The notes beneath the pieces were generated by a model, which made no database searches, was not told the origin of the DNA, and saw only the letters and a list, made by a program, of their open reading frames with translations. A stretch of DNA of 64,000 nt, taken from NCBI RefSeq assembly GCF_019038465.1, contig NZ_JAFKRH010000005.1, forward strand, positions 1 through 64,000, in the 5' to 3' direction. Below are positions 4,507-45,718 of the stretch, piece after piece. The position numbers and the translations under genes are program-made. The first letter of the stretch is position 1. Each line of letters begins with the position of its first letter. The stretch is from Synechococcus sp. CCY 0621 (GTDB lineage: Bacteria > Cyanobacteriota > Cyanobacteriia > PCC-6307 > Cyanobiaceae).

Positions 4507-4525
4507 GGGTGATCGATCACTAACT

Positions 4526-4624: not shown

Positions 4625-4645
4625 TTTATCGACATAAGCCCGTTC

Positions 4646-28372: not shown

Positions 28373-28891
28373 TCAGGGTTGAATCGGTTCCATCCGCTGG
28401 AGGCGGTGCACGATGTCGTCGATGCTGCTGTCCTTCGCGGGGTTCTGGCGGCTGCTGGAGAGCTGGCGACCGACCACATGGGCCCCGAGGTGGGCCAGCT
28501 GGATGCGCAGCACGGCCAGCACCTCCACCCCGGGCCCGCCGGAATGGGTGGCGATCGCGATCGGCCGGCCGTTGAACAGGCTGCGGAACCCTTCCCCCTG
28601 GACCGAGAGCCAGGCGATGGCGCTGGTCAGCACCGGGGGCAGCGAGCCGTTGTACTCGGGGGCGCAGATCACCCAGCGAGGGGCGGCTGCGAGGGTCTGG
28701 CTGAGCGGGCCCACCTCGGCAGGAAGGCCGGCTTCGGCATGGGTGCGGGGGTTGTAAAGCGGCAGGGAGAGGTCCGTGAGGTCGAGCACGTCGGCCCCCA
28801 TGCCGCGGGCGCGGGCCGCGGCGGCGAAGCGTTCAGAGAGGGCCAGGTTCTCACCGTTGCTGGCGCTCAGCACCAGAAGATCGGGGGCCAT
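28373..28891 (-). CDS. NAD(P)H-dependent FMN reductase
   Basis: This 172-residue flavodoxin-fold protein has FMN-binding turns visible as LVLSASNGENLALSE near the start, APEYNGSLPPVLTSAIAWLS in the middle and ATHSGGPGVEVL near 120. These enzymes reduce FMN, quinones or azo compounds. It starts one base after the old yellow enzyme stop, so the two are co-transcribed. Together with pirin it looks like a quinone and electrophile detoxification unit. Confidence 0.88.
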   Translation of the reverse strand: MAPDLLVLSASNGENLALSERFAAAARARGMGADVLDLTDLSLPLYNPRTHAEAGLPAEVGPLSQTLAAAPRWVICAPEYNGSLPPVLTSAIAWLSVQGEGFRSLFNGRPIAIATHSGGPGVEVLAVLRIQLAHLGAHVVGRQLSSSRQNPAKDSSIDDIVHRLQRMEPIQP

Positions 28892-28892
28892 G

Positions 28893-29960
28893 TCAGGCGG
28901 GCTCCAGGAAGGGATAGTCGGTATAGCCGGCAGGACCGGCGGTGTAGTACGTGGCTGGGTCGGGATCCTGCAGGGGGGCGCCACGGCGGAACCGTTCGGG
29001 CAGGTCGGGGTTGGCCAGGAAAGCGTTGCCGAAGGCCACCGCATCGAGCTGGCCGGCGGCGATGGCGGCGTTGGCTTCCTCGGCGCTGTAGCCCATGTTC
29101 CCCACCAGCACCCCACTGAAGGCGGCCCGGATCGGGGTGAGCACGTCGCCGTGCTGCTGGCCGAGGAAGTCACTCCGCATCACGTGCAGATAGTCCAGCC
29201 CCGTTCCATTCAGCCGCTCCGCCAGCCAGCTGGACAGTCCGATGGGGTCGCTGTCGACCATCGCGTTGAAGCCGTTCAGCGGAGAGATCCGCAGGCCTAC
29301 CAGGGGGCATTCGTTCTGCACGGCCTCCAGTACCTCCAGCAGCAGCCGGGCCCGGTTGGAGATCGGTCCCCCATAGGGACCACTGCGCCGGTTGCTGCCG
29401 TCCCGCAGGAACTGATCGAGCAGGTAGCCGTTGGCGCCATGGACTTCCACCCCGTCGAAGCCGGCGGCGGTGGCGTTGCGAGCGGCCTGCCGGAACCCGG
29501 CCACGATCGTCGGCAGTTCGTCATCGGCAAGCTCCCGGGGCTCGACGTAGGGCTGTTTCCCCTCGGGGGTGTGCACCTCGTCGCCGGTGATGGCGATCGG
29601 GCTCGGGGCCACCGGCTGACGGCCGTCGTTGAGCAGGGGGTGGCAGGCCCGACCGCCGTGCCAGATCTGCAGCACGATCCGTCCACCGGCGGCGTGGACC
29701 GCCTCAGTGGTGAGTCGCCAGCCCTCCACCTGGGCCGGCGAATGGATGCCGGGTTCATGCCAGAAGGCGGAGTTGCCCTCCATCACCATCGTGGCCTCGG
29801 CGATCAGCAGACCGGCGCTGGCCCGCTGCTGGTAATACGAGGCCATCAGTGGGCCCGGAACGTGGCCAGGTTCGGCGCGACCGCGGGTGAGGGGAGCCAT
29901 CAGCACCCGGTTGGGCAGCTCCAGGCGACCCACCGTCAGGGGAGTGAACAGGTCGCTCAT
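28893..29960 (-). CDS. Old yellow enzyme-type alkene reductase
   Basis: This 355-residue FMN-dependent TIM-barrel enzyme of the OYE family reduces activated C=C bonds of enones and other electrophiles with NADPH. Motifs include MAPLTRGRAEPGHVP, LLIAEATMV, LQIWHGGRACHP, GFDGVEVHGANGYLLDQFLRD and the GGPISNRARLL loop. I chose the ATG at 29960. It is divergent from an HxlR regulator with about 146 bases between starts, including two inverted repeats. Confidence 0.9.
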   Translation of the reverse strand: MSDLFTPLTVGRLELPNRVLMAPLTRGRAEPGHVPGPLMASYYQQRASAGLLIAEATMVMEGNSAFWHEPGIHSPAQVEGWRLTTEAVHAAGGRIVLQIWHGGRACHPLLNDGRQPVAPSPIAITGDEVHTPEGKQPYVEPRELADDELPTIVAGFRQAARNATAAGFDGVEVHGANGYLLDQFLRDGSNRRSGPYGGPISNRARLLLEVLEAVQNECPLVGLRISPLNGFNAMVDSDPIGLSSWLAERLNGTGLDYLHVMRSDFLGQQHGDVLTPIRAAFSGVLVGNMGYSAEEANAAIAAGQLDAVAFGNAFLANPDLPERFRRGAPLQDPDPATYYTAGPAGYTDYPFLEPA

Positions 29961-30062
29961 CGTGCGGAGACCGGCAAGGGAGAGTGGAAACAACCTGGAC
30001 TGGTAGGGATCGTTAAGGTCATGGGAAGACTCTGGCGGACGCGCCCCTTGCCTGACAAGAAC

Positions 30063-30097
30063 GCACCGACTGGTGCCTGGGTCACCCGCTGGTAACC
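30063..30097. promoter_or_regulatory. Two tandem inverted repeats, candidate HxlR operator
   Basis: GCACC-GACT-GGTGC (30063-30076) and GGTCACC-CGCT-GGTAACC (30080-30097) lie side by side, both with ACC/GGT half-sites and 4-base spacers. They end 9 bases before the HxlR start and about 100 bases upstream of the divergent old yellow enzyme. HxlR-family regulators bind such palindromes. Confidence 0.5.
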
Positions 30098-30106
30098 CCC
30101 GTATCC

Positions 30107-30463
30107 GTGACCACGTTTCTCGACGACCTCGGCAGCAGCGGTGATCCCCAGGTCTGCCCGGCAGAACTGGCCCTGCGGGTCATGCGCGGACGCTGGAAGC
30201 TGATGATCGTGCGTGAGCTCAGCGGTGGTGTGCGCCGGTTCTCGTCGTTGCAGCGGTCGCTTCTGGGGGTGAGCCACAAGGTGCTGACGGCCCAGCTGCG
30301 GGAGCTGGAGGCCGATGCTGTGGTCTGGCGTCGGGTCTTCAGCGAAGTGCCGCCCCGGGTGGAGTACGGACTCACCGAGCGTGGTCAGGCACTGCTGCCC
30401 GTGCTGGAAGGTCTGCATGCCTGGGGAGCAGCAGCGCCTCCAGCGGGGGAAGCTGGGGAATGA
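30107..30463 (+). CDS. HxlR-family regulator, candidate electrophile sensor
   Basis: This 118-residue HxlR winged-helix protein contains LALRVMRGRWKLMIVRELSGG, FSSLQRSLLGVSHKVLTAQL and YGLTERGQALLPVL. A single Cys near the N-terminus (PQVCPAELALRV) sits where YodB and QsrR carry the Cys that reacts with quinones. The start is GTG at 30107. It is divergent from the old yellow enzyme-reductase-pirin genes and probably represses them. Its last 92 bases overlap, antisense, the glycosyltransferase gene. Confidence 0.8.
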   Translation: MTTFLDDLGSSGDPQVCPAELALRVMRGRWKLMIVRELSGGVRRFSSLQRSLLGVSHKVLTAQLRELEADAVVWRRVFSEVPPRVEYGLTERGQALLPVLEGLHAWGAAAPPAGEAGE

Positions 30464-32399
30464 GGCTGCGGCGGAACCAGCTCTCCGGCGCGATCCTCTG
30501 CAGGGCTCGCAGCAGCACCTGTGGCAGGGTGCGCAACTCGAAGGCGGCCCGCAGGGTGGGCCAAAGACCCTCGCGTCGGTAGAGCAAGGTCTCGAGCTGA
30601 TCCCGCTGCAAGGGGGTGAGCGGTCCCCAGGTTCCGCCGATGGCAGCGGCGCGCTGGGCCACCGGCACGAACGGCAATGTTTGGCCTGGCAGAAGGCCCT
30701 CCACGCAGAGGGGGGCGGTGGCCTCCAGGGCGCGGGCAGCGTCTTTGCTCTCCAGGCTGAGTTCGGCGCCCGTGGCGCTGATCGCCTGCAGTCGTCCCGG
30801 TACCATCCCTCCCTCGTGGTGCAGCCGGACCGGCAGGGACAGGGCGAACCATGGCACCCCATCACTCCGGGGCCGATCCCAGCAGCTCCGGATCGCCAGC
30901 AGCAGCAGCAGAGCGTTGAGCAGGCTCCAGCCCAGCAGCACCCCGAGGGTGGCGACCGAGACCGGCAGCGCCGCCCCCTGGCCCGCCAGCAGCGGCTGCC
31001 GACCCGACGCCAGGTTGCCCAAGGCCAGAAGTTGCAGGCCGAGCAGCACCAGCAGCGGCAGTAACAGGCCCGCATCGGGGCCGGTGGCCCCCTGGCCGGT
31101 TACCGCCTTCGGGGTGACCCGGAACTGGCGCGGCCGCCCCAGGGCCGTGGACACCACGGCGGCGCAGATCGGCAGCAGGAAGATCCAGCGGTAGAGCTCC
31201 GGCAGGATCGCCGCCCGGGCGTGGCCACTCAGCCAGCGGGTGAACAGAAGTTGGCAGAGGAAGAACGGCAGGGCCACGCTGACCAGCGCCTCCCCGCCGA
31301 TCAGGATCGGGGCAATGCCCAGCAGGCCCAGGCTGAGCGGTGTGCAGAGCAGCACCAACTGGGCCGGGAAACTGAACCAGTGCAGGATGCCCTCGCTGTA
31401 GGCCAGCCGTTGCAGTGGACTGAGCCCGGGGATCCGCAGCGGGTCGGCGCCCGTGCGCAGGGTCTGCAACGAACCGCTGCCCCAGCGGCAGCGTTGCCGG
31501 GCCATGGCCGCCGCCGTGAACGGGGCCAGGCCGGCGCTGAGCTTCTCCGAGAGGTAGTGGTTGCGGTAGCCCGCGGCCGTGATCCGGATACCGGTGGCGA
31601 GATCCTCCGAGGGGGTGGCCGTTTCGAAGCCCCCCACCCGCTCCAGGGCACTGCGCCGCATCACGAAGGAGGTGCCGGCGCAGACCACCGCATTGAGGTT
31701 CTGGCGGGTGGGCTGGATCCAGCGGTAGAAGCTCTCCTCATCCGGCAGCAGCCAACGCTCCAGCCGCAGGTTGCGCATCACCGGATCGGCATTCATGTAG
31801 CTCTGGGGGGTCTGCACGAACCCCACGGACGGATCTGTGAACAGGCCGACCGTGCGGCTCAGGAACGGCCGCAGGGGCACGACATCGGCATCGAACACCG
31901 CCACCAGATCGCCCTGGCAGTGGCGCAGTCCGTGGTTGAGGTTGCCGGCCTTGGCGTGGGCGTGGTCGACCCGGGCGAGGTAGCGGCAGCCGAGGCGGTC
32001 ACTGAGCTCGGCCAGCTCCGGCCGCCCAGCGTCATCCAGCAGCCAGACTGTCAGCGCCGGGTAGTCCATCGCCAGGCAGCCCCGCAGGCAGCGTTCCACC
32101 AGTTCGGCCGGTTCCCCACAGCTGGGCACCAGCACATCGACCGCCGGGGCCGGCATCGGGATCGGGCCTGCGGCAGGCGCGGGCCGCTCGGGCAGGAGGG
32201 TGAACCAGAGCTGCAGGAAGAAGCCGGCCAGCAGCACCAGTTCGGCGGCCAGCGTCAGCAGGCTCAACGTGGTGGACAGAGAGGTGGCCAGGTTGAGACT
32301 TGCGCTGAGGCGCCAGCTCAGATAGCGGGCCCCCAGCAAGGTCAGCAGCAACACGGCCCAGGGCAAGCGCGTCATCAACCCTGTCCAATTGTTAAGCAA
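30372..32399 (-). CDS. Cellulose synthase-like family 2 glycosyltransferase
   Basis: This 675-residue membrane glycosyltransferase resembles BcsA. After two N-terminal helices, the GT-A domain shows VDVLVPSCGEP, LLDDAGRPE, VFDADVVP, a TPSEDLATG acceptor motif and QRCRWGSGSL (Q-x-x-R-W). Five or more helices and then a C-terminal part follow; the stretch ALSLPVRLHHEG suggests a degenerate PilZ-like domain. It would polymerise a beta-glucan or related polysaccharide and export it. No bcsB or bcsC lies beside it. Its 3' end overlaps the HxlR gene by 92 bases. Confidence 0.8.
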   Translation of the reverse strand: MLNNWTGLMTRLPWAVLLLTLLGARYLSWRLSASLNLATSLSTTLSLLTLAAELVLLAGFFLQLWFTLLPERPAPAAGPIPMPAPAVDVLVPSCGEPAELVERCLRGCLAMDYPALTVWLLDDAGRPELAELSDRLGCRYLARVDHAHAKAGNLNHGLRHCQGDLVAVFDADVVPLRPFLSRTVGLFTDPSVGFVQTPQSYMNADPVMRNLRLERWLLPDEESFYRWIQPTRQNLNAVVCAGTSFVMRRSALERVGGFETATPSEDLATGIRITAAGYRNHYLSEKLSAGLAPFTAAAMARQRCRWGSGSLQTLRTGADPLRIPGLSPLQRLAYSEGILHWFSFPAQLVLLCTPLSLGLLGIAPILIGGEALVSVALPFFLCQLLFTRWLSGHARAAILPELYRWIFLLPICAAVVSTALGRPRQFRVTPKAVTGQGATGPDAGLLLPLLVLLGLQLLALGNLASGRQPLLAGQGAALPVSVATLGVLLGWSLLNALLLLLAIRSCWDRPRSDGVPWFALSLPVRLHHEGGMVPGRLQAISATGAELSLESKDAARALEATAPLCVEGLLPGQTLPFVPVAQRAAAIGGTWGPLTPLQRDQLETLLYRREGLWPTLRAAFELRTLPQVLLRALQRIAPESWFRRSLIPQLPPLEALLLPRHADLPARAAVPDHAR

Positions 32400-33004: not shown

Positions 33005-34252
33005 TCAGCCATCGCTGCGCTGGGCGATGAGGGCTTCGTAGGCCGTGCAGAACGCCTCGCCCAGGGCGTGCCGCAGCGGTCCGTCGTGGCGGAACGCCTC
33101 CAGGGCATCGGCCTGACAGGTGGGCAGGGAGGGCGCACCGTCCGGTGCCTGCACATAGGTGTTCAGGTCGCTGCGGGGACCAGGGTCGAGGCGGCGTTCG
33201 ATGCCGTCGAGCCCCGCCGCCAGCACGGCGGCCTGGAGCAGATAGGGGTTGGCGGCGCCGTCACCGAGGCGCAGTTCAATCCGCTGGTCGTCGGGGATGC
33301 GCACCATGTGGGTGCGGTTGTTGCCGCCGTAACTGATCCAGGATGGCGACCAGGTGGCACCGGAGCTGGTGACGGAGCGGGCCAGGCGCCGGTAGCTGCC
33401 GGCCACCGGATTGGTGAGGGCGCACAGGGCCGGGGCGTGGGCCAGCAGGCCGGCGAGAAACTGATAGGCGAGTTCCGACAGGCCCTTCTCCCCCGCCGGG
33501 TCGTGGAAAACGTTGTGCCCAGCTTCATCCCAGAGGGAGGCGTGCAGGTGTGCGCCGTTGCCGGTGAGGGCCGGGATCGGCTTGGGCTGGAAGCTCACCC
33601 GCACGCCATGGCGTTCAGCAAGGGCGGCCGCCATGACCCGGAAGAAGGCATGGCGGTCGGCGGTCAGCAGGGATTCGGCATAGGTCCAGTTGAGCTCGAA
33701 CTGGCCGTTGGCGTCCTCGTGGTCGGCCTGGTACGGCCCCCAGCCGAGGTTCTCCATGCCCTCGAGCAGTTCACTGATCAGGGGGTAGTGCCGCATCAAG
33801 GCCAGCTGGTCGTAGCAGGGCTTTGACTGCCGATCGAGTCCATCGGCGATGGCCTCCCGCTCAGGGTCCATCAGGAAGAACTCCGCCTCCACGCCACTGC
33901 GGAACTGCAGGCCCAGGGCGGCCGCCCGGGCGATCTGCCGTTGCAGAACACGGCGGGGGGACTGCTCCAGCGCCACGCCCTCCACCTGCAGATCGGTGGC
34001 CACCCAGGCCACCTCCTTCTGCCAGGGCAGCACCATCAGGCTGGTGGGATCGGGGATCGCCAGCACGTCCGGGTCGGCCGGCGTCATGTCGAGCCAGGCG
34101 GCGAAACCGGCGAAGCCGGCCCCGGAACGGGCCAGTTCGGCGGCCGCGGCGGCTGGAACAAGCTTGGCCCGCTGCACCCCGAACAGATCGCAGAACGAGA
34201 ACAGGAAGTGCCGGATGCCATGGGTGGCGGCGAAGCGGGCCAGGTCGGTCAT
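33005..34252 (-). CDS. Glutamine synthetase-like ligase (GlnT/PuuA type), copy 1
   Basis: This 415-residue protein has the glutamine synthetase fold. An N-terminal beta-grasp (HFLFSFCDLFGVQRAKLVP) is followed by the catalytic domain with GVEAEFFLMDPE, YQADHEDANGQFELNW, GNGAHLHASLWD, YGGNNRTHMVRIP and RIELRLGDGAANPYL. Members of this branch often make gamma-glutamyl amides from amines other than ammonia (PuuA, GlnT-like). It shares the fold, but not close sequence, with the copy at 41274-42638. It is probably the third gene of an operon with a hydrolase and a membrane desaturase. Confidence 0.82.
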   Translation of the reverse strand: MTDLARFAATHGIRHFLFSFCDLFGVQRAKLVPAAAAAELARSGAGFAGFAAWLDMTPADPDVLAIPDPTSLMVLPWQKEVAWVATDLQVEGVALEQSPRRVLQRQIARAAALGLQFRSGVEAEFFLMDPEREAIADGLDRQSKPCYDQLALMRHYPLISELLEGMENLGWGPYQADHEDANGQFELNWTYAESLLTADRHAFFRVMAAALAERHGVRVSFQPKPIPALTGNGAHLHASLWDEAGHNVFHDPAGEKGLSELAYQFLAGLLAHAPALCALTNPVAGSYRRLARSVTSSGATWSPSWISYGGNNRTHMVRIPDDQRIELRLGDGAANPYLLQAAVLAAGLDGIERRLDPGPRSDLNTYVQAPDGAPSLPTCQADALEAFRHDGPLRHALGEAFCTAYEALIAQRSDG

Positions 34253-34293
34253 CGGTTGGTGGTGAGGGGATGGGGGACGGGGCCTTGGCCACG

Positions 34294-35325
34294 TCAGCCG
34301 GCGCAGAGCCGGTCCACGGCGGCCCGCAGCTGGCGCTGCTCGGCCGGGGCGTCCCTTGGATTGCCGGCCCTGTGCCCCTGGTCGGACTCCAGGACCTCGA
34401 AGTGGGCACCGCTGATCAGGGCGGCCTCGGCTCCGCAGTCCTCGGGGGTGAAGTAGAGGTCGTGGCGACCGGCGATCACGGTGGTGCGGGCCTCGATCCG
34501 GCCCAGGGCTGCGGCCAGATCGGCCTCGGCGTCCCCCGTGGCGACCCCCGCGGCGGCGGCCACGTCGTTCGCCAGCCAGACATCCAGCATCGCCAGCAGG
34601 TCGTGGGGGTCGTGGCGGCGGTAGGCCGGCAGCCAGGCCTCCTCCACGTAGGCCTCGACGCTGGTGTAACCCAGCTGCTGATAGGCACCGCGGCGGTAGA
34701 AGGGCTGGCTCGCGGCCCAGCTGGCGTAGATGAAGGCAAAGGTGCGCAACCCCTGCTCCGGCGCACCCCGGAAGCGGTGTCCATCCCAGCTGGAATCGGC
34801 GGTGAGGGCCTGGCGCAGGCTGAGCAGGAACACCCGGTTGTGGTCTGTGGTGCGCGCCGTGCCACACACACAGCACATCCGCTGGGTTCGCTCCGGCTCC
34901 AGCACCCCCCAGTGGTAGGCCTGCTGGGCCCCCATCGACCAGCCGTAGATCAGGGCCGGCGAGGTCACCGCGAACACCTCCTCCAAGAGCCGTCGCTGGG
35001 CGGCCACGTTGTCGCGGTGATCCACGGTCCAGCGGCCGCTGGCCAGCCCTGGATCACCGCTGCTCGGGCTGCTGGAGCGACCATTGCCGAACTGGCTCAC
35101 CAGCACCACGCACCAGCGCTCCGGATCGAGGATCGGGCCCACCACCCAGTCGATGTCCTCCGGCCAGGCGCCATAGGAGCTGGGGTAAAGCACCAGGTTG
35201 GAGCGGTCATCGGCCAGGGTTCCGTAGACCCGGTAGTCGAGCCAGGCGGCGGGAAGTGTCCCCCCTGCGGCGAGGGGAAAATCCCCGAGCGCGAAGCGGC
35301 GCGGGGACGCGGGGGTGGGTGGCAA
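34294..35325 (-). CDS. Alpha/beta hydrolase related to homoserine acetyltransferase
   Basis: This protein is about 343 residues and resembles MetX-like hydrolases. The nucleophile elbow is YGWSMGAQQAYHWG (Ser); the acid is in AGRHDLYFTPEDC (Asp) and the base in ESDQGHRAGNP (His). SNLVLYPSSYGAWPEDIDW matches the family N-terminus. I placed the start at the TTG at 35325 because no ATG or GTG fits, and an earlier start would run into the desaturase gene. The acyl substrate is unknown. The gene lies between the desaturase and the ligase, with short gaps. Confidence 0.75.
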   Translation of the reverse strand: MPPTPASPRRFALGDFPLAAGGTLPAAWLDYRVYGTLADDRSNLVLYPSSYGAWPEDIDWVVGPILDPERWCVVLVSQFGNGRSSSPSSGDPGLASGRWTVDHRDNVAAQRRLLEEVFAVTSPALIYGWSMGAQQAYHWGVLEPERTQRMCCVCGTARTTDHNRVFLLSLRQALTADSSWDGHRFRGAPEQGLRTFAFIYASWAASQPFYRRGAYQQLGYTSVEAYVEEAWLPAYRRHDPHDLLAMLDVWLANDVAAAAGVATGDAEADLAAALGRIEARTTVIAGRHDLYFTPEDCGAEAALISGAHFEVLESDQGHRAGNPRDAPAEQRQLRAAVDRLCAG

Positions 35326-35336
35326 GGGATCGGGAC

Positions 35337-36377
35337 TCAGGGGAGGGCGAGCAGGGAGGGGTCCTGCAGGAAGCTGCGGTGCACCGCCAGGTAGCCATGG
35401 CCCGTGTGCACCAGATGGGGGGCCAGATGGCCGTGGGCCTCGGCCAGGGCGTGAAAGGGCAGCGAGGGGTAGAGGTGATGCTCGACGTGGAACGGCATCT
35501 CCCACATCAGCCAGCGCAGGGGCCCCAGGGTGCTGGTGGTGCGGGTGTTGCTGAGGCCGTCGGTGTCCGTGCTGCAGCCGCCGTGTTCGGCCATCAGCAC
35601 GAAGCGCAGCAACGGCTGGCCAACAGCGAGGGGCAGCAGCCAGAACCAGAACAGGGCGCCGTTGGCCTGCCACAGGGAGGCCACCAGCAGCACGGCGTAG
35701 ACGCCGAATTGGAGCCGGATCGATCGGGTGACCGCCGCCACGGCCTCGGCGGGGATGTAGGGCCTGCCGCCGAAGTCACCAAACAGGCCGGCGGTGTGGC
35801 CCCGGACCTTGCCGATCAACCAGGGCAGGCCGCTCAGCTCGAGCAGGTAGCCGGCCAGGGTGCTGGCGGGCGCTTGCTCAAGTTCGGGATCGAGGCCCGG
35901 CTGGTGGGTGAAGCGATGGTGCCACTGGTGGTAGCGGCGGTAGTAATCAGCGTTGTAGAAGCTCAGCACTCCGGCCCACCAGGCCACGGTGTCGTTGGCG
36001 CCCTTGCTGGCAAAGGCAGTGCGGTGACCGCACTCGTGCATGGCGCAGAAGCCGAAGGCCAGGCCCCAGCCCAGCAGCAGCAGGCCCACCAGCCGCAGGG
36101 CCCAGAGGGCAGTGGTGGGAAGGGCCGGCGGCATGGGCCATCCCCACAGCAGAGCCCCCAGCCCCAGCACCGAGAGGTGGAAGGCCAGGCGGCGCCAGCC
36201 GGGCCCGTCCCGTCGCTCGTTGAGGCGCTGCAGCAGCGGACCGGACAGCAGCGGAACAGCGGCGCCCGGGCCGGCCGCCGGTGGCGCGGAGGGTGGGGAG
36301 GCGGTCAAGAAGGTCGCCGTTGGTCGGCGGAGGGAGACGTCGTCAACCCACTGTCCCGCTCGGAGTCCGCCGGACAC
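35337..36377 (-). CDS. Membrane fatty acid desaturase-like di-iron protein
   Basis: This protein is about 346 residues and has the three histidine boxes of membrane desaturases/hydroxylases: HECGHRTAF, HQWHHRFTH and HVEHHLYP. Four or more helices surround them. Such enzymes use O2 to desaturate or hydroxylate acyl or carotenoid substrates. The GTG at 36377 is the longest start; a TTG about 70 bases later is also possible because the first 40 residues are low-complexity. It heads the operon with the hydrolase and ligase. Confidence 0.82.
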   Translation of the reverse strand: MSGGLRAGQWVDDVSLRRPTATFLTASPPSAPPAAGPGAAVPLLSGPLLQRLNERRDGPGWRRLAFHLSVLGLGALLWGWPMPPALPTTALWALRLVGLLLLGWGLAFGFCAMHECGHRTAFASKGANDTVAWWAGVLSFYNADYYRRYHQWHHRFTHQPGLDPELEQAPASTLAGYLLELSGLPWLIGKVRGHTAGLFGDFGGRPYIPAEAVAAVTRSIRLQFGVYAVLLVASLWQANGALFWFWLLPLAVGQPLLRFVLMAEHGGCSTDTDGLSNTRTTSTLGPLRWLMWEMPFHVEHHLYPSLPFHALAEAHGHLAPHLVHTGHGYLAVHRSFLQDPSLLALP

Positions 36378-36479
36378 CGTTCGTCACGAACACTTGCACC
36401 GGGTGTGGCTCCCGGTGGGGATGGTGACCCGCCGGGGGCCTGCGGCAGGGAAGAGTGGGATCTGTGTCGTGACGCTCCG

Positions 36480-37340
36480 GTGCCTTCCCTGCTGTTCTTC
36501 TCCCTCTGGGGCTTTGAGGGGCCCCTCACCACGGCCCTGGAGACGGCCGAGCGGGGAGGCTTCGACGGGCTGGAGCTGAACATCCAGCATCCGTCCCTGG
36601 TCGGCGACCCGGACGGACCCGCCCGCCTGCAGGAGGCCGGCAGACCCCTGGTGCTGGAGGTGGTCACCGGCGGCGGTTACGTGCCGGAGTTGGCCGTGAC
36701 GCCGGTGCAGCATCTGGCGGAACTGGGCGGCCAACTGAGCCGATGCGCCGAGCTCCGTCCCCACCGGGTGACCGTGCTCACCGGCAGCGACGCCTGGCCC
36801 CTGGAGCGGCAACGGTCCTTCCTGGCCGAGGCCCAGGCGCTGGCCGCCGCCAGCGGCCTGCCGGTGAGCTTCGAAACCCACCGGTCCCGCTGCCTGGGGA
36901 TGCCCTGGACGATCGCGCTGCTGCTGCAGGCCGTGCCGGGGCTGCGGCTGACGGCCGACCTGAGCCACTGGTGCGTCGTGGCCGAACGGCTGATGACCCC
37001 GGATCTGGAGCCGGTGCAGGCGATGGCCGACCGGGTCGACCACATCCATGCCCGGGTGGGCCATGCCCAGGGTCCCCAGGTGTCCCATCCCTTCGCCCCC
37101 GAGCACGAGGAGGCCCTGGCGGCCCATCGGGCCTGCTGGCAGCTGTTCAGCGCCCGGGCGCTGGAGCGCGGGGCGCCGCCGCCCAGCTTCACACCCGAAT
37201 TCGGACCGGATGGCTACATGCCCACCCTGCCGTTCACCGATCAGCCGGTGGCCGATCTGCTGACGATCAACACGGCGATGGCGGAGTGGTTGCGCAGCCA
37301 GCCTTTAGCTGGAAACAGCGATAAGCTGTGTTCATCGTGA
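36480..37340 (+). CDS. Xylose isomerase-like TIM-barrel protein
   Basis: This 286-residue protein is of the AP-endonuclease-2/sugar-isomerase fold. It begins at a GTG (36480) with LLFFSLWGFEGP. Candidate metal ligands are the Glu in VSFETHRSR, the Asp and His in TADLSHWC, the His in VDHIHARVGH and the Glu in FTPEFGPDG. The substrate is unknown; relatives include inosose and hydroxypyruvate isomerases. It is divergent from the desaturase gene, 102 bases apart, and may belong to the same pathway. Confidence 0.75.
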   Translation: MPSLLFFSLWGFEGPLTTALETAERGGFDGLELNIQHPSLVGDPDGPARLQEAGRPLVLEVVTGGGYVPELAVTPVQHLAELGGQLSRCAELRPHRVTVLTGSDAWPLERQRSFLAEAQALAAASGLPVSFETHRSRCLGMPWTIALLLQAVPGLRLTADLSHWCVVAERLMTPDLEPVQAMADRVDHIHARVGHAQGPQVSHPFAPEHEEALAAHRACWQLFSARALERGAPPPSFTPEFGPDGYMPTLPFTDQPVADLLTINTAMAEWLRSQPLAGNSDKLCSS

Positions 37341-37356
37341 ACAGAGTTACGTCGTG

Positions 37357-37572
37357 ATGAACGTGATCGACGCCCCGACCGCCACACCGTCGGCCAACCC
37401 TTCCAGCGGAGGGTCCGATCTTCGCCAGGCTGCCCTGGTTGCTTCCCTGCGCGCCCGCTACGCCATCGCCGAGCAGCGCCAGGACGCGGACGCCAAGCGG
37501 GCCCTGTTCAAGGAGGCCGCCTACCTCGGCATCCGCCCCGACGCGTACCAGGGCTCCAGCAGCGCCGCGTAG
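37357..37572 (+). CDS. Small protein, 71 residues
   Basis: This short frame follows the TIM-barrel gene by 16 bases. After a Ser/Pro/Ala-rich start, it has a helical part: DLRQAALVASLRARYAIAEQ and DADAKRALFKEAAYLGIRPD. The helix pattern and GC bias support a real small protein. Its end overlaps, antisense, the Rieske oxygenase gene by 52 bases. Function unknown. Confidence 0.5.
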   Translation: MNVIDAPTATPSANPSSGGSDLRQAALVASLRARYAIAEQRQDADAKRALFKEAAYLGIRPDAYQGSSSAA

Positions 37573-38570
37573 ATCGCCTGCTGGTGCAGGATCCGGGCCT
37601 CCAGCCGGTGCGGCGGCCCGGTGCGGAACCCCTCCCCGTACCCCCGCTGGGCGGATTCCACCAGCGCGCGGTCTTCGGCGAGGAACTGCACCATCTCCGC
37701 CATCAGGGCCTGCCCTTCCCCCAGGCGCTCCTGCGGGCCCAGCAACCACACCTGCATGGTGCAGCTGTCCAGATGGTTGGGCAGAAACTGGATCAGGGCC
37801 AGGCGTCCGTCGGGCCACAGCAGCAGGTGGTTCCAGGGCGGCAGACCGAAGGTGAGGAATTCGGCGTCCCCTTGCAGCCAGGGAGTGGCCAGCACGTTGG
37901 CCCAGGTACCGAAGCGATGGCTGTAGTGGCGTACCGGCCCCTGCATCCGGTGCAGGGTGGTGGGATGGGCGATGGCGACGTGGTAATCGTCGAGGGTGTT
38001 GTCGTGGGCGATTTTCCAGTTGCAGGCCAGGGTTCGCCTGTGGAAGGCCAGGGACACCAAAGGCCTGGCCAGGGCAATGGCGGCTTCCTGCAGCGGCAGA
38101 TCGAGCTGGTCGTCGAGGGGGATCGGATCGGCACCGAGGGCCACCCAGATCAGGGAGGCCCGCACCTGGCAGGCGAGGGCCTCCAGCGGCCAGGCTTCGC
38201 GATCAAACGGTTCGACGAACTCCGCTTCGCGAGCGGCCGCCAGCAGCGTTCCGCCCAGGTCGTAGGTCCAGCCGTGGTACGGGCACACCAATCTGCGGCA
38301 GGCCACGGCCCCCTCGGCCGGCACCCGGAAGGCCACGGCCCGGTGGGGGCAACGGTTGCGGAAGGCCCGAACGACGCCATCGCTGCCGTGGCAGAGCAGC
38401 ACCGGCAGGCCCAGCAGCTCCACCGCCCGGACATGGCCCGGGGGGAGCTCGGCGGCGGCGGCGACGGGATGCCAGAAACGCGATGCATAGTGCTCACTCT
38501 CGAGGGCGGCGACGGCCTCGGAGCGGTAGAGCTCCGGAGGCAGGAAAGCGGCTGTGGCGGCGGACGGCAT
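37521..38570 (-). CDS. Rieske non-heme iron oxygenase, alpha subunit
   Basis: This 349-residue oxygenase has a Rieske 2Fe-2S site (RCPHRAVAF, then LVCPYHGWTYD). In the C-terminal domain the mononuclear iron site is in DNTLDDYHVAIAHPTTL (Asp, His, His). Such enzymes hydroxylate or demethylate with O2 and a reductase; no reductase is encoded nearby. I chose the ATG at 38570, 10 bases after the ABC ATPase stop, so it is probably the last gene of the guanidine-import operon. A role in freeing guanidine from a substituted guanidine is speculative. Confidence 0.85.
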   Translation of the reverse strand: MPSAATAAFLPPELYRSEAVAALESEHYASRFWHPVAAAAELPPGHVRAVELLGLPVLLCHGSDGVVRAFRNRCPHRAVAFRVPAEGAVACRRLVCPYHGWTYDLGGTLLAAAREAEFVEPFDREAWPLEALACQVRASLIWVALGADPIPLDDQLDLPLQEAAIALARPLVSLAFHRRTLACNWKIAHDNTLDDYHVAIAHPTTLHRMQGPVRHYSHRFGTWANVLATPWLQGDAEFLTFGLPPWNHLLLWPDGRLALIQFLPNHLDSCTMQVWLLGPQERLGEGQALMAEMVQFLAEDRALVESAQRGYGEGFRTGPPHRLEARILHQQAIYAALLEPWYASGRMPR

Positions 38571-38580
38571 AGCAGGGTGC

Positions 38581-39348
38581 TCAGAGCAGGGAGCCATCCA
38601 GGCTGCGCAGGCGGCCCGCCAGTTCCTCGCGCAGTTCCAGGAAGGGTTGGGACACCCGCAGGTGGCGCAGATCGGAGCGATCCAGCTGCACGGCCACGGT
38701 GTGAACGATCCTGCCGGGCCGCGGCGCCATGATGTGGACCGTGCCGGCGAGGAGCAGGGCTTCCTCGATGTCGTGGGTGATCAGCAGGGCCGTGAGCCCC
38801 GTGGTCTTCCAGAGGTCGTGGAGGAACTCCTGCATGGACTCCCTGATCTGCAGATCCAGGGCCCCGAAGGGCTCATCCAGCAGCAGCACCTTCGGCTCGG
38901 TGGCCAGGGCCCGGGCGATCGCCACCCGCTGCTGCATGCCCCCGGAGAGTTCCCGCGGCAGCAGCCGGGCCGCGTCCGCCAGGCCGACGACGTCGAGGAA
39001 GTAGGCGGTCCGCTCACGGATCTCTGCCTTGCCCCTGCCCTGGAGCGACAGGCCGAAGGCGACGTTCTGGGCCGCCGTGAGCCAGGGGTAGAGGCTGTAC
39101 TTCTGGAACACCATGCCCCGGTCGGAGCCGGGGCGCCGGACCTGCTCACCATCCAGGTGGATGGTGCCCTCACTGGGCCGCTCCAGACCGGCGATCAGCC
39201 GCATCACGGTGGATTTGCCTGACCCTGAGCTTCCCACCAGGGCCATGAACTGCCCGGACACCAGCTCGAAGCTGATGTCCTCGAGGACGAGCTTGCGATC
39301 ACGCCCCTCACCGAAGCTCTTGGAGACGTTGGAAACCTGGAGATGCAT
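38581..39348 (-). CDS. ABC importer ATPase (NitT/TauT type, candidate guanidine importer)
   Basis: This 255-residue ATPase has Walker A ALVGSSGSGKSTV, the Q-loop VFQKYSLYPWLT, signature LSGGMQQRVAIARAL, Walker B VLLLDEPFGALD and the H-loop LITHDIEEAL. The family serves nitrate, sulfonate, taurine and, in Synechocystis Sll1080-1082, guanidine. It lies 5 bases after the permease gene in the transport operon. Confidence 0.88.
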   Translation of the reverse strand: MHLQVSNVSKSFGEGRDRKLVLEDISFELVSGQFMALVGSSGSGKSTVMRLIAGLERPSEGTIHLDGEQVRRPGSDRGMVFQKYSLYPWLTAAQNVAFGLSLQGRGKAEIRERTAYFLDVVGLADAARLLPRELSGGMQQRVAIARALATEPKVLLLDEPFGALDLQIRESMQEFLHDLWKTTGLTALLITHDIEEALLLAGTVHIMAPRPGRIVHTVAVQLDRSDLRHLRVSQPFLELREELAGRLRSLDGSLL

Positions 39349-39353
39349 GGGGT

Positions 39354-40130
39354 TCAGTTGGCCCAGGAACAGGCCCGACGCATCAGGAATCGGAAGCCGA
39401 GATCGATGATCAGGCCGATCAGGCCGATCACGATCAGGCCGACGAAAATCTCATCGGTGCGCAGGAATCTCTGGGCCAGGCTGATGCGTTTGCCCAGGCC
39501 TTCGTTGGCCGCCACCAGTTCGGCAACGATCACGAGATTCCAGGCCGACGCCATGTTGATCCGGTAGGTGTCGAGCACCTGGGGAGCAATGAAGGGGGCC
39601 ACCACCCTGGTGAGGATCGGCACACCCCGACCCCCCAGGGTGAGGGCTGTTTCCACCAGTTCGGAGGGAACGAACTTCACCGCATCCATGATCATCAGGG
39701 TGTTGAAGAAAAAGGTGCCGATGAAGATGAGCATCACCTTCGGCAGCTCTTCCAGACCGAAATAGATGATCAGCAGGGGAATGAAGGCCGGCGCCGGCAT
39801 GTACCGGATCAACCCCATCAGCGGCTCGAGGAGATGGCAGATGGTTCGGTTCGTGCCCATGGCGATGCCGATCGGCAAGGCCAGCCCGGCGGAGATCACG
39901 AATCCCAGGAAGACCCTCTGGATGCTGGCGATGGCGTCCTTGACCAGAATCCCCTGCTGGAACTGATCGCTGCCCGCCTGCCACACCGCCCCGGGTCCGG
40001 GCAGGAAGAGCTTGTCGACCATGCCGCTGGAGGTGGCCAGAAACCACACGACAAAGACCGTGAGGATGCCGAGCACCCCCAGGACCCAGGGGTGATGGAA
40101 GAAGCGGCGCAGGGCAGGAGACCGGACCAT
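39354..40130 (-). CDS. ABC importer permease (NitT/TauT type)
   Basis: This protein is about 258 residues with six membrane helices. The cytoplasmic loop that contacts the ATPase reads VETALTLGGRGVPILTRVVAP, close to the EAA motif. The N-terminal helix is VLGILTVFVVWFLATSSG. I chose the ATG at 40130, 5 bases after the binding-protein stop; a TTG 9 bases earlier would overlap it. It forms the membrane channel of the importer. Confidence 0.87.
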   Translation of the reverse strand: MVRSPALRRFFHHPWVLGVLGILTVFVVWFLATSSGMVDKLFLPGPGAVWQAGSDQFQQGILVKDAIASIQRVFLGFVISAGLALPIGIAMGTNRTICHLLEPLMGLIRYMPAPAFIPLLIIYFGLEELPKVMLIFIGTFFFNTLMIMDAVKFVPSELVETALTLGGRGVPILTRVVAPFIAPQVLDTYRINMASAWNLVIVAELVAANEGLGKRISLAQRFLRTDEIFVGLIVIGLIGLIIDLGFRFLMRRACSWAN

Positions 40131-40135
40131 GGCGG

Positions 40136-41146
40136 TCAAGGGGCGTTATCGACGAACTGGGAATTCAGCAGGTTGGTCAGGTCAGGCTTGCTCTTGGCCA
40201 GGCCTGTTTCCACCAGGAAGACGCTGATCTGCTCGGCGGCATAGGGCAGCGAGAGCATCGTGGTGCCCTGTTTGAAGTTGCTGCGGTTTTCCGCCAGGGT
40301 CTGGATGGTGGTGCCGGCGTTGTACGCCTTGAACTCCGCCTCGCTGACACCGGAGCGCTCCACCAGGATCGGCAGGGTGCCGCCGGGATCCTCCTCGATG
40401 GTCTTGAGGGTGGCGAACCAGGCGTTGACGATCTTCTGGACCTTCTCAGGATTCTTGGCGACGAAGTCGGTGCGGCAGACGAGCAGATCGCTGATCGCCC
40501 CCGGATGGTCCTTGGAGGTGGCCAGGGCCCGGCTGCCGGGACGCTTCAGGGCCTGGGTGGTGAAGGGCGCATAGACGCCCGCCGCATCCACCTTGCCGGC
40601 GGCGAAGGCCGCAGCAGCGGCGCCGGTTTCCAGGGGGACGAAGGTGATGTCCTTGGCGGAGAGCCCCGCCTCCTTGAGCACCTTCAGCAGCAGGAAGTGG
40701 TCGACCGTACCTTCCTCGGCGGCCACCTTCTTACCCTTCAGACCAGGGATGGAGGTGATTTCCACTGCGGCGATGATCTGGTCGTTGCCCGTGGAGAAAT
40801 CGTTCTGCAGCACCACCTGCAGATCCGCACCGCCAGCCACGGAACTGATGGTGTCGTTGAGGGTCTGGCTGTTGCAGTCAAGCTGGCCGGCGTTGAGGGC
40901 ATTGATGGAGTCGAGGTAGCCGTCGAACCACTGCATCGAGGCCGCCACACCCTGCGCCTTGAACAGGTCCTTGACCTCAGTGACTTTCCATGGGAACCAG
41001 CCTGGCCAGGCGCTGTAGCCGATCTTCACGGGTGCCTCCCGGCTCGCAGGTTGCTGGCAACCGGCCAGCAACCCTCCCCCGAGGGTGGCCATCAGGATGA
41101 GGGAAATCGCCCGGCGTTGACGACGAAGGAAGGAGGGTTTCAACAT
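40136..41146 (-). CDS. ABC substrate-binding lipoprotein (candidate guanidine binding)
   Basis: This 336-residue binding protein has a lipoprotein signal (ILMATLGGGLLAGC, Cys near 30). The mature domain begins VKIGYSAWPGWFPWKVTEVKD, with LNAGQLDCNSQTLND and FAAGKVDAAGVYAPFT as in NitT/TauT-type binding proteins. In Synechocystis the homologous importer beside guanidine hydrolase is used for guanidine. The adjacent gdmH, hypA, hypB and riboswitch suggest the same ligand here. Binding specificity cannot be read from the sequence. Confidence 0.85.
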   Translation of the reverse strand: MLKPSFLRRQRRAISLILMATLGGGLLAGCQQPASREAPVKIGYSAWPGWFPWKVTEVKDLFKAQGVAASMQWFDGYLDSINALNAGQLDCNSQTLNDTISSVAGGADLQVVLQNDFSTGNDQIIAAVEITSIPGLKGKKVAAEEGTVDHFLLLKVLKEAGLSAKDITFVPLETGAAAAAFAAGKVDAAGVYAPFTTQALKRPGSRALATSKDHPGAISDLLVCRTDFVAKNPEKVQKIVNAWFATLKTIEEDPGGTLPILVERSGVSEAEFKAYNAGTTIQTLAENRSNFKQGTTMLSLPYAAEQISVFLVETGLAKSKPDLTNLLNSQFVDNAP

Positions 41147-41273: not shown

Positions 41274-42638
41274 TCAGAAGAACTCCAGATAACGCTGCTG
41301 CTCCCATTCGGAAACCGCAGAGTGGTAAGACTCCCACTCTTCTCTTTTGTAGGTGATAAATGCCTTGAACATGGCATCACCGAATACGCTTTTGGCAAGT
41401 GGATCCTGGGAGAAAGCATCGACGGCTTCGCCGAGGGTTCTCGGCAGCATCGTCAGGCCCCGTTCAGCCCGTTCTGCTGCGCTGAGTGTGTAGGCATTGA
41501 CCAGATTGGGCGCACCCGGATCGAGTTCTTCGCGGATTCCTTCCAGCCCGGCCGCGAGCATCAGGGCGGCGCCAAGATAGGGGTTGCAGGAGATGTCGGC
41601 GGCCCGGCACTCCACCCGTCCTCCCGGTGAGGGAATGCGCAGCATATTGGTGCGATTATTGTTGCCGTAGCACACGAAAACCGGAGCCCACGTGAATCCT
41701 GACATGCTCCCCTGCGCCACCAATCGCTTGTAACTGTTCACCGTCGGAGCGATCACCGCGCAGATGGCGGGTGCGTGGCGGAGAACGCCGGCGATGAAGT
41801 GCTCGGCCAGCCGGGTGACCTTCCCCGGGGTGGCTTCGGGGGTGGCAAACAGGTTGGCGCCCGTCTGTCCATCGGCCAGGGACATGTTGAAGTGGGCGCC
41901 GCTGCCGGTGCGGTCACCGAAGGGCTTGGGCATGAAGGTGGCCAGCAGGCCATGCCGATGGGCGATCTCCTTGGCCATCAGCTTGAAGAAGGTGAGCCGG
42001 TCGGCCATCGTGAGGACATCGGCGTAGTCGAAGTCGGTCTCGAACTGGCCGGGGCCGTCCTCGTGGTCGAAGGAATAGACCCCCCACCCCAAGCCGTTCA
42101 TCGCCTGCACCAGCTCGTCCAGCCAGGGCAGGTTGTCGAGCAGGCCGCGCACGTCGTAGGCGGGTTTGTCGAGGGTGTCGCGGTCACTGAAGGGAACCCA
42201 GCCGCCCGTCGCCCCCTTCTTCAGCACGAAGAACTCGGTCTCAATGCCGAGGTTGAAGCGGAAACCCATGGCGGCGGCCTCCTGGCGCACCCGGCCAAGG
42301 ATGTGGCGGCTGCAGGCGTCGAAGGGGCGGCCGTGCAGATGCAGATCACTGGCGAACCAGGCCACCTCCGGGTGCCAGGGGAGCACGGTGACGCTGGCGG
42401 GATCGGGAACCGCGGCCACCTCGTCGTCGCTCACCTCCTGGGGAACGCCGTCGAGGGCCGCCCCTGTGAACAGTTCGGAGCCGGCCATCATCTGGCCGAG
42501 GTGCTCAAGGGGCACGGCCTTGGCCTTGCTCACCCCGTGCAGGTCCACGAAGCTGGCCAGGGCGTAGCGGACGCCCTTCGCGCGCAGGTCGGCCTGCAGG
42601 GCCGTGGTGGAATCGGAGGAGGGATGCTGGTGACTCAT
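41274..42638 (-). CDS. glnT: Glutamine synthetase-like ligase (GlnT type), copy 2
   Basis: This 454-residue ligase has the glutamine synthetase catalytic domain: LGIETEFFVLKKG, YSFDHEDGPGQFETDF, GSGAHFNMSLADG, YGNNNRTNMLRIP and RVECRAADISCNPYL. It is closer to GlnT-type proteins than to GlnA or GlnN. Its ATG overlaps the hypB stop by one base (TGATG), so they are translated together. Because guanidine hydrolase releases ammonia and urea, this ligase may capture ammonia. It could instead glutamylate an amine; the sequence does not decide. Confidence 0.83.
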   Translation of the reverse strand: MSHQHPSSDSTTALQADLRAKGVRYALASFVDLHGVSKAKAVPLEHLGQMMAGSELFTGAALDGVPQEVSDDEVAAVPDPASVTVLPWHPEVAWFASDLHLHGRPFDACSRHILGRVRQEAAAMGFRFNLGIETEFFVLKKGATGGWVPFSDRDTLDKPAYDVRGLLDNLPWLDELVQAMNGLGWGVYSFDHEDGPGQFETDFDYADVLTMADRLTFFKLMAKEIAHRHGLLATFMPKPFGDRTGSGAHFNMSLADGQTGANLFATPEATPGKVTRLAEHFIAGVLRHAPAICAVIAPTVNSYKRLVAQGSMSGFTWAPVFVCYGNNNRTNMLRIPSPGGRVECRAADISCNPYLGAALMLAAGLEGIREELDPGAPNLVNAYTLSAAERAERGLTMLPRTLGEAVDAFSQDPLAKSVFGDAMFKAFITYKREEWESYHSAVSEWEQQRYLEFF

Positions 42639-43339
42639 CAGGCGTGCAGCAGGGCGGGGGAGGTCTGAACGGCCTGGCGCTGGGCGTCGAGCCAGGCGTG
42701 CCAGGCCTCGAAGCCCTCTCCGCTGGTGGCGGAGAGGCGGAACACGGCGCAGCGGGGATTCACCTGGCGGATGTGGGCTTCGATCCGCTCCACATCCACC
42801 GGCAGGTGGGGCAGGAGGTCCACCTTGGTGATCAGCACGCAGTCGGCTTCCCGGAACATCACCGGGTACTTGAGCGGCTTGTCGTCGCCCTCGGTGACGC
42901 TGAGGAGCGCCACCTTGCGGTGCTCACCGATGGCGAACTCGGCGGGGCAGACCAGGTTGCCCACGTTCTCCACCCAGAGGATGTCCAGGGCGGCGGGATC
43001 GAGGCGCTGGCGGAGCAGCTTCAGGCCGCCGCTGACCATGGCGGCATCCAGGTGGCAGGCACGGCCGGTGGTGATCGGCACCACCGGAATCCCCACGGCC
43101 TCCAGCCGCTCGGCGTCGAGCAGGGTGGTCATGTCGCCTTCCAGCACAGCCATGGCCCAGCGGCCTGAGAGGGCGGCCAGGCTGCGCTCCAGCAGGGAGG
43201 TCTTGCCGGCGCCGGGGCTGCTCATCACGTTGAGACAGAGCAGGTTCCAGGCGTCGAAGTGCTCGCGGTTGTGCTCGGCCCGTTGCTGGTTGGCCGCCAG
43301 CAGGTTGAGGCCGAGGGTGTCTTCGAGGGGCATGTGCAT
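42638..43339 (-). CDS. hypB: Nickel-insertion GTPase HypB (guanidine hydrolase accessory)
   Basis: This 233-residue GTPase has a P-loop ([18 protein letters not shown]), the conserved [17 protein letters not shown], and a TKVDLLPHL base-recognition motif. HypB delivers nickel to enzymes. No hydrogenase is encoded in the window; in Synechocystis a second hypA/hypB pair (Sll1078/Sll1079) matures nickel-dependent guanidine hydrolase. Here the order gdmH-hypA-hypB is the same, so this copy probably serves GdmH. Confidence 0.9.
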
Positions 43340-43345
43340 GGCGGA

Positions 43346-43747
43346 TCAGCAGGCGGGGGTGAAGCAGGGTGCGGTGGGCTGTGTGGTGGCGGTCTCGAAG
43401 CCGTAGGCGACGGAGCGGATCCGCAGTTCGCGGCCGCTGACGATCTCCTCCATCGGGTGCTGGCAGCAGGGGGAGCGGAAACCGTTGGCTGGATCGGGGC
43501 TGTAGGTGGCCTGGCAGCGGACGCAGCGACCCACCAGGAGCACCGACTCGATCACCAGCTCGGCGCCGTCGAGCCAGCTGCCCTTGACGGCATCGGCCCA
43601 GGTGACCACCAGCTGGTCGGGTTCGACGCAGGTGAAGGTGCCCACCTCAAGGTGGACCCGATCCACCGCCGGCACCCGGGGAGCGTGCTGCTGCTTCCAC
43701 TCGTTCATGGACAGCAGCAGGCAGCGGGTCATGTCGACTTCATGCAT
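43346..43747 (-). CDS. hypA: Nickel chaperone HypA (guanidine hydrolase accessory)
   Basis: This 133-residue HypA begins MHEVDMTRCLLL, with the His and Glu that bind nickel. It has a zinc site with CVRCQ and a second pair read as SPCCQHP. It works with HypB to load nickel. It lies 3 bases after gdmH and 6 bases before hypB, an arrangement that implies coupled expression. Confidence 0.88.
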   Translation of the reverse strand: MHEVDMTRCLLLSMNEWKQQHAPRVPAVDRVHLEVGTFTCVEPDQLVVTWADAVKGSWLDGAELVIESVLLVGRCVRCQATYSPDPANGFRSPCCQHPMEEIVSGRELRIRSVAYGFETATTQPTAPCFTPAC

Positions 43748-44989: not shown

Positions 44990-45142
44990 TGGGGCGGTCT
45001 CCCGGGCTTTTGTCCCTCCGTGCCACTCGCTGTTTTGGGGGCGTGGGCCACACACAACAGTGAATGTGCTTCTCTCGGACCAGGCATCCATTCCACTGGT
45101 GGCAGAGCCAGCTGTGGGGGATCGGAACCCTAGAAGCAACTT
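44990..45142 (-). promoter_or_regulatory. Guanidine-I (ykkC) riboswitch before gdmH
   Basis: On the minus strand the leader contains, in the right order, the hallmark ykkC elements: CTAGGGTTCCG (45123-45133), CTGGTCCGAGAGAAG (45069-45083) and ACGGAGGGACAAAAGCCC (45004-45021), followed by GGGAGA. These are the most conserved bases of the guanidine-binding aptamer. It lies about 25 bases upstream of the gdmH start. Guanidine binding would turn on the operon of hydrolase, nickel chaperones and ligase. Confidence 0.92.
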
Positions 45143-45212
45143 CCGCTCAGGCATGGTGAAGGTCCATGGGGCTGACCGTTGTGACGGTTGCTACAGGAAC
45201 TCCCTGGTCGGC

Positions 45213-45491: not shown

Positions 45492-45718
45492 CGGCCATCC
45501 TTCGGGGCAGGCCCCGCAGAGATCCTTCCACTGTCGTCCATGGCCGGCCATCGCGCGCCCCCCAAACGGGGACATTGCCGCTGGACGCACCGCCCGGGGC
45601 TGCTGCTGCCGGCGGTGCCGATGGGGGCCGGCCATGGGGGTTCGCTGACCCGAACGCGGCGATGGTGCTGCACCCCTTCCGATTCGGTTAAGGTTTTGGC
45701 AACAGATCGACACCAGCC

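Follow-up and report, generated by a model that had tools for sequence, protein, structure and literature searches.

Two gene modules side by side in Synechococcus sp. CCY 0621: a conserved oxygenase-hydrolase-ligase trio, possibly for alkylamine use, next to a predicted guanidine operon

Do five neighbouring genes of Synechococcus sp. CCY 0621 make up a single pathway, and what chemistry could they support? We analysed a stretch of 64,000 nucleotides (assembly GCF_019038465.1, contig NZ_JAFKRH010000005.1, positions 1 to 64,000 of the forward strand; the window), in which a sequence-only reading had grouped five open frames at 33005-37572 into one cluster that would make or degrade a small molecule containing an amine. 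The five frames are found there, and encode a ligase (GlnT2), a MetX-like hydrolase, a membrane di-iron oxygenase, a TIM-barrel protein and a small protein. The supposed cluster is, instead, two modules side by side: a trio made up of the oxygenase, the hydrolase and GlnT2, and a guanidine module that includes the TIM barrel and the small protein. We tentatively read the trio as an alkylamine-utilisation operon, with the other two genes belonging to a separate, riboswitch-controlled guanidine module, and we regard this reading as plausible rather than probable. The five genes and the gap between them are as follows (aa, amino acids).

33005-34252, minus strand: GlnT2, a predicted GmaS-type gamma-glutamylamide synthetase (TIGR03105), 415 aa from ATG, third gene of the trio
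34294-35340 as searched, minus strand: MetX-like alpha/beta hydrolase of the PRK07581 subfamily, start unsure (CTG 35340 or TTG 35325)
35337-36377, minus strand: membrane di-iron oxygenase of the FA_desaturase fold (Pfam), 346 aa from GTG
36378-36479: 102-bp gap between the divergent trio and TIM-barrel genes, a presumed promoter region
36480-37340, plus strand: xylose-isomerase-like TIM barrel, 286 aa from GTG
37354-37572, plus strand: small protein, 72 aa from GTG, 71 aa from the next ATG

The description of the first three genes as a tight operon is fair on spacing, with 41 bp between the hydrolase gene and glnT2, and the TIM-barrel and 71-residue proteins are divergent from the trio, as had been said, both lying on the plus strand. 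The CTG at 35340 overlaps the stop codon of the oxygenase gene; the first usual start past that stop is TTG 35325 (343 aa), 11 bp downstream, and the listed hydrolase frame extends as far as GTG 35673, within the oxygenase gene. For the oxygenase, TTG 36308 is an alternative possible start and may be the true one.

To define which genes travel together, each of 201 genomes of the host's family was searched for seven proteins. Oxygenase matches below 330 bits were left out (119 genomes matched at E 0.001, 66 kept), as were GlnT2 matches below 500 bits, comprising GlnT1, a second ligase in the window, and others (66 genomes matched, 64 kept), a weak match to the Rieske oxygenase in G165 (86 bits; 51 genomes matched, 50 kept) and second fragments in one genome. 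A parallel neighbourhood comparison retained 80 of 112 relatives; its clustering merged GlnT1 with GlnT2 and sometimes took antisense TIM-barrel frames, and the counts were taken from the per-protein tabulation instead. The closest relatives in the genome scan were Cyanobium, Synechococcus and Aphanothece strains. The oxygenase and hydrolase genes are neighbours in all 66 carrier genomes, and the complete trio stands on one contig and one strand in 61 of them; in the remaining five, GlnT2 is on a different contig (G096, G192) or has no match of the required strength (G047, G074, G107). The TIM barrel is accompanied by GdmH, the predicted guanidine hydrolase of the neighbouring operon, in 49 of 50 genomes, and the Rieske gene of that operon likewise in 49/50, with the TIM barrel and the Rieske enzyme both present in 48; GdmH is also present in 66 of the 69 genomes that have the small protein. 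The trio is missing from 13 of the 50 genomes with the TIM barrel, and the TIM barrel from 29 of the 66 with the trio. Similarly, 12/66 trio genomes have no GdmH, and 22/76 GdmH genomes have no trio. Because the genomes share ancestry, Fisher values for co-occurrence overstate independence, and rearrangements are the better evidence.

Such rearrangements occur. Among the 54 genomes holding both trio and GdmH, the two lie within 12 kb of each other in 24; in the other 30 they stand farther apart than that or on separate contigs, some of these assemblies being fragmented. In four g30 genomes (L127-L130) the trio stands past the transporter of the guanidine operon with the antisense small-protein gene alone intervening, and these loci gave no match to GlnT1, the Rieske enzyme or the TIM barrel. 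The trio is thus a conserved unit, often but not always adjoining the guanidine operon, and its grouping is more than chance because relatives keep the three genes together; the TIM barrel and the small protein are assigned to the guanidine operon because co-occurrence splits them from the trio. The co-occurrence check that the sequence-only reading had itself proposed therefore upholds the trio and removes the TIM barrel, and the counts rule out one five-gene cluster.

What, then, might the trio do? The ligase offers the clearest indication. GlnT2 scores 550.4 bits against TIGR03105 (cut-off 469.6), and its best chain in the Protein Data Bank (PDB) is 7cql (509 bits), which we take to be the GmaS of PMC7948447, with matching letters and numbering in agreement. 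At the 17 positions named for GmaS in the portions of PMC7948447 used here (15 active-site residues plus Ala48 and Trp300), GlnT2 agrees at all 17; over 67 loci of at least 55% identity, 16 of these positions are identical and the other, Tyr191, is Tyr or Phe. The catalytic residues Arg312, Asp177 and Glu186, along with the amine-site residues of RhGmaS as given there, are present in GlnT2 and in 67/67 of these loci, and position 48 is Ala in every one, the ammonia-binding Asp50 of glutamine synthetase being missing. GlnT1 retains Asp177 and Glu186 and, on our reading of the alignment, differs at Gln175, Asn188 and Trp189; its nearest PDB chain is 9qur, named glutamate--methylamine ligase. The residues point to GlnT2 as a GmaS-type ligase with a predicted alkylamine substrate. 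SoxD, presumably a marker of N-methylglutamate dehydrogenase, gave no match in the 13 trio genomes searched, with a control plasmid record positive twice and 14 standard control genomes giving 0; because of this negative, the N-methylglutamate pathway, the usual outlet of gamma-glutamylmethylamide, seems to be missing from trio genomes.

The oxygenase matches Pfam FA_desaturase and carries three histidine boxes whose histidines are invariant in 48/48 aligned sequences (L099 and L111 excluded for internal stops). Its structure model has a pLDDT of 85.8, with the first ~39 residues poorly modelled, and its best fold matches are chains 8xks_K (Z 24.2) and 8xqw_M (Z 23.0), both from a chloroplast motor complex. 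On this model, the fold alone does not separate hydroxylase from desaturase. The best curated match is GntB (NF041365), which NCBIfam describes as an arginine hydroxylase, at 38.7 bits, far below the cut-off of 380. GntB was also the best match for two of three proteobacterial relatives scanned, again far below cut-off, and DesB for the third. Curated desaturase models match weakly, DesA reaching 27.3 bits against a cut-off of 500, and we consider the enzyme likely to be a hydroxylase. GntB itself is a transmembrane enzyme of guanitoxin-type synthesis, according to the part of PMC10367076 drawn on here.

The hydrolase scores 354.1 bits against PRK07581 (cut-off 332). MetX proper, homoserine O-acetyltransferase, was considered and rejected, TIGR01392 giving 81.3 bits against a cut-off of 500. 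Ser135 is kept in 81/81 and His323 in 78/78 aligned rows (84 loci). The nearest solved structures, 5e4y and 5d6o, carry the PDB name homoserine O-acetyltransferase, and we take both to be acetyl-ester hydrolases.

Taken together, these assignments would allow the following sequence. GlnT2 would join glutamate to a small primary alkylamine, methylamine- or ethylamine-like, as its residues support; the membrane di-iron enzyme, fed by ferredoxin, would hydroxylate the carbon adjoining the amide nitrogen; and the hydrolase would split the resulting carbinolamide, or the amide, into glutamine or glutamate and an aldehyde. The amine nitrogen could thereby be assimilated without the N-methylglutamate pathway. 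We think breakdown likelier than synthesis for the trio. The more specific proposal, that these steps form a new bacterial route to alkylamine nitrogen in which gamma-glutamylation and di-iron hydroxylation of the N-linked carbon yield glutamine and an aldehyde and N-methylglutamate is bypassed, is in our judgement rather unlikely. The earlier suggestion, that a small amine-containing molecule is made or broken down, is borne out in part: it suits the trio, with its GmaS-type residues and weak GntB-like match, while co-occurrence splits the five-gene set.

Gamma-glutamylation followed by oxidation is also the order of the isopropylamine pathway. Aniline and 1-naphthylamine provide further precedents, and, in the portions of PMC11335346 used here, these systems similarly comprise one operon with a glutamine synthetase (GS)-like ligase, an oxygenase and a third, hydrolase-like gene. 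The trio differs in that its oxygenase is a membrane di-iron enzyme rather than a Rieske enzyme, its hydrolase has the alpha/beta fold and is not glutamine-amidotransferase (GAT)-like, and its ligase is of GmaS type; neither a Rieske oxygenase nor a GAT-like protein was found in the trio. By analogy, then, the trio appears to match the aniline and 1-naphthylamine systems in logic, not in protein families. In the indirect methylamine pathway, as far as PMC7948447 was drawn on, RhGmaS shares with GlnT2 all the checked catalytic, ATP-site and amine-site residues and likewise has no Asp50. The trio genomes differ from the GmaS/N-methylglutamate route in having no SoxD and in coupling the ligase to a membrane di-iron oxygenase and an alpha/beta hydrolase. 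In line with the earlier remark of knowing no described pathway with this set, word searches of an open-access library gave no printed pathway for the trio: the kind of pathway is known, and the combination of enzymes appears not to have been described.

For the phylum as a whole, a profile search across 386 genomes gave 32 with the oxygenase; 23 of these lie outside the host's family, and 20 of the 23 were fetched (some loci end at contig ends). We also opened 7 of 283 plasmid records matching the oxygenase and 10 of 39 matching the hydrolase, chosen by eye. A Leptolyngbya plasmid carries the full trio; one Nostoc plasmid has the hydrolase and a GlnT with transposases nearby; and the Nostoc C052 plasmid has the oxygenase without hydrolase or GlnT. 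A PRK07581 hydrolase stands beside the oxygenase in 3/7 plasmid relatives (Leptolyngbya, Paroceanicella, Cupriavidus), and the Paroceanicella and Cupriavidus pairs are joined by an iron alcohol dehydrogenase, with rubredoxin and a flavin adenine dinucleotide (FAD) oxidoreductase as well in Cupriavidus. The proteobacterial oxygenases are 34-41% identical to that of the window; in Sinorhizobium mexicanum the genes that follow encode a ferredoxin-type reductase, a zinc alcohol dehydrogenase and an alpha/beta hydrolase of a different kind. Homarine catabolism was considered as a clue from the Ruegeria relative, and a literature search gave no account of its genes. Around the hydrolase, seven of the ten plasmid neighbourhoods contain genes for GS-like ligases, amidase, cytosine permease, urea transport or hydantoinase. 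A GS-like ligase occurs with a taurine-type transporter in two, one of which also has two arginase-family genes; amidase, urea-transport or cytosine-permease genes are present in four, and hydantoin/pyrimidine genes in one. The other three are the Nostoc pair and two unclear cases, one with an acetamidase/formamidase-family gene ~5 kb off.

Several observations weigh against an alkylamine-utilisation operon. The trio includes no transporter gene. Outside the family, the set is looser: the hydrolase is adjacent to the oxygenase in 11/20 cyanobacterial loci and GlnT2 lies within ~1.5 kb in 5/20, arrangements vary (divergent in L165, spaced in L172 and L176), and five Nodosilinea-type genomes have a 50-51% identical ligase outside the stretch around the pair. 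In 4/7 plasmid relatives (Nostoc C052, Ruegeria, Phyllobacterium and Sinorhizobium mexicanum), a PRK07581 hydrolase is not beside the oxygenase. AlkB (Z 13.6) and SCD1 (Z 6.8) rank behind the two chloroplast chains as fold matches. Finally, NtcA boxes near the oxygenase start number 0 in 87 relatives against a mean of 4.3 in shuffled sequence; because of this null result we see no sign of global nitrogen control, and NtcA control of the trio is unsupported.

The same evidence can be arranged in other ways. It is unlikely, we judge, that the steps run in reverse order, with a larger N-alkyl compound broken down by the oxygenase and hydrolase to free a small amine, which GlnT2 would simply capture as its gamma-glutamylamide. 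Several cyanobacteria and two proteobacterial plasmids do have the pair with no ligase next to it, and the proteobacterial oxygenases that have an alcohol dehydrogenase and either a ferredoxin-type reductase or rubredoxin as neighbours resemble an oxidative-dealkylation set-up. Yet the SoxD search revealed no outlet for the gamma-glutamylamide in any of the 13 trio genomes examined, and within the family the unit nearly always includes the ligase (61/66).

Two further alternatives turn on the identity of the oxygenase. As a GntB-like hydroxylase, it could release guanidine from a guanidino compound and feed the neighbouring guanidine hydrolase, as might be expected from its best curated match, from the trio lying within 12 kb of GdmH in 24/54 genomes and from the four g30 genomes in which nothing but the antisense small-protein gene comes between trio and transporter. 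This we hold to be quite improbable: GdmH is missing from 12/66 trio genomes and distant or on other contigs in 30/54 (with the fragmented assemblies noted above), plus-strand genes part the trio from the riboswitch operon in the window, and the GmaS-type residues of GlnT2 point to alkylamines. Very improbable, in our view, is a role in modifying lipids or acyl amides, with a true acyl desaturase, an esterase and a ligase in a side role. The Pfam family, the nearest solved hydrolases and the top fold matches ahead of AlkB, chloroplast chains that we guess may be plant-type desaturases, would suit it; against it stand the weak scores with curated desaturase models and a GmaS-type ligase left without an obvious place, and the patchy distribution (32/386 genomes) and plasmid carriage would suit catabolism over membrane upkeep.

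Riboswitch control of the trio is not supported: Rfam found no riboswitch in seven loci where the trio or the pair stands without guanidine genes, and in 11 other loci it found the guanidine-I element alone, confined to the six with gdmH. A GntR-type regulator is divergent to the oxygenase in seven loci (six Nodosilinea/Phormidium-type and L169), with GntR and UTRA domains shown for one such protein; this arrangement hints at an inducing small molecule. The five such genomes open to search are those with the 50-51% identical ligase noted above.

In water, small amines and guanidines serve as sources of nitrogen, and picocyanobacteria rank among the important primary producers. Should the proposed role of the trio hold, alkylamines would be open to Cyanobium-type cyanobacteria through a previously undescribed route, one common in Cyanobium-type picocyanobacteria and plasmid-borne in some other cyanobacteria. 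Annotations of such genes as "type III glutamate--ammonia ligase" or "fatty acid desaturase", as on the Leptolyngbya plasmid, would then be misleading.

The second module has the following features besides the two plus-strand genes.

37521-38597, minus strand: Rieske oxygenase, carnitine-monooxygenase/GbcA-like, last minus-strand gene of the guanidine operon
38581-41146, minus strand: taurine/sulfonate-type ABC transporter (ATPase 38581-39348, permease 39354-40139, binding protein 40136-41146)
41274-42638, minus strand: GlnT1, second TIGR03105 ligase, 42% identical to GlnT2
42638-43339, minus strand: HypB-like nickel chaperone, TIGR00073 above cut-off
43346-43747, minus strand: HypA-like protein, 133 aa, name read from the sequence, relatives in the same position
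43751-44965, minus strand: GdmH, predicted guanidine-hydrolase-type enzyme of the arginase family (Arginase Pfam; riboswitch and HypB context)
44997-45144, minus strand: guanidine-I riboswitch RF00442, 75.3 bits against a cut-off of 63

GdmH scores 176.1 bits against TIGR01230, "agmatinase", just over the cut-off of 174.3; sll1077 was formerly annotated likewise, as noted in the part of PMC10119275 consulted. A guanidine-I riboswitch lies upstream of the arginase-family gene, together with HypB and HypA, the latter recognised by position and relatives, and the riboswitch and HypB context lead us to predict that this gene is the guanidine hydrolase GdmH. A cyanobacterial guanidine operon with riboswitch, hydrolase, HypA/HypB, transporter and an extra Rieske gene is already in print for marine picocyanobacteria (PMC10119275, in the sections used here); the window adds GlnT1, the TIM barrel and the small protein, which those sections do not mention.

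The Rieske enzyme has carnitine monooxygenase 6y9c as its best PDB match (88.6 bits). The TIM barrel reaches a Pfam score of 23.4 bits, under the cut-off of 31.1, and its sole PDB profile match is a weak one to AsbF (E 0.0049); its residues E132, D160, H163, H188 and E240 are invariant in 17/17 sequences and, on our own reading, likely form a metal site. The small protein had no match in Pfam or NCBIfam. Its relatives shift position relative to the TIM barrel among genomes, some of which have extra matches elsewhere (four in G035). In this module, the Rieske enzyme would probably strip an alkyl group off a substituted guanidine, the TIM barrel would act on the product, and GdmH would hydrolyse the guanidine. 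A dealkylating Rieske enzyme beside GdmH would parallel the methylguanidine-demethylating MgdH/MgdL, in which, by the portions of PMC12508155 used, a hydroxylase and a second protein are likewise added to a guanidine riboswitch operon; the proteins there are a 2-oxoglutarate dioxygenase and a lyase, in contrast to the Rieske enzyme and TIM barrel here, and the likeness is one of analogy. The Rieske, TIM-barrel and small-protein genes are thus candidates for how cyanobacteria reach substituted guanidines.

Some further features of the relatives concern one or both modules. At L132 (G044:C1:26000-34000), around positions 3369-4979, a guanidine-I riboswitch is followed by the ~181 N-terminal residues of gdmH, which pass directly into residues 94-413 of glnT2. 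This looks like a deletion scar and suggests that, in that lineage, the two modules once lay close together on one strand. In-frame stops occur in some oxygenase gene copies (G072, G143, G364, L099, L111), which may be local trio loss or sequencing error. The contig of L050 is titled as a Bifidobacterium breve metagenome-assembled genome; its oxygenase is 69% identical and has the same neighbour groups as cyanobacterial loci, and most likely it is a mislabelled or mis-binned cyanobacterial contig. Seven of the 80 loci (L052, L054, L055, L059, L061, L062 and L073) have nitrilase-family and radical-SAM genes nearby, with families read from one example each, a neighbourhood that presumably resembles the Nit1C cluster.

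Beyond the trio, the block at 28373-32399, kept in the nearest relatives, holds an FMN reductase, an old-yellow-enzyme homologue, an HxlR regulator on the opposite strand and a long frame that is cellulose-synthase-like by reading only. At the other end, just upstream of the riboswitch at ~45200-45500 on the minus strand, lies a small conserved protein, relatives of which directly precede the oxygenase in several loci that have the trio and no gdmH close by (e.g. L045 and L050).

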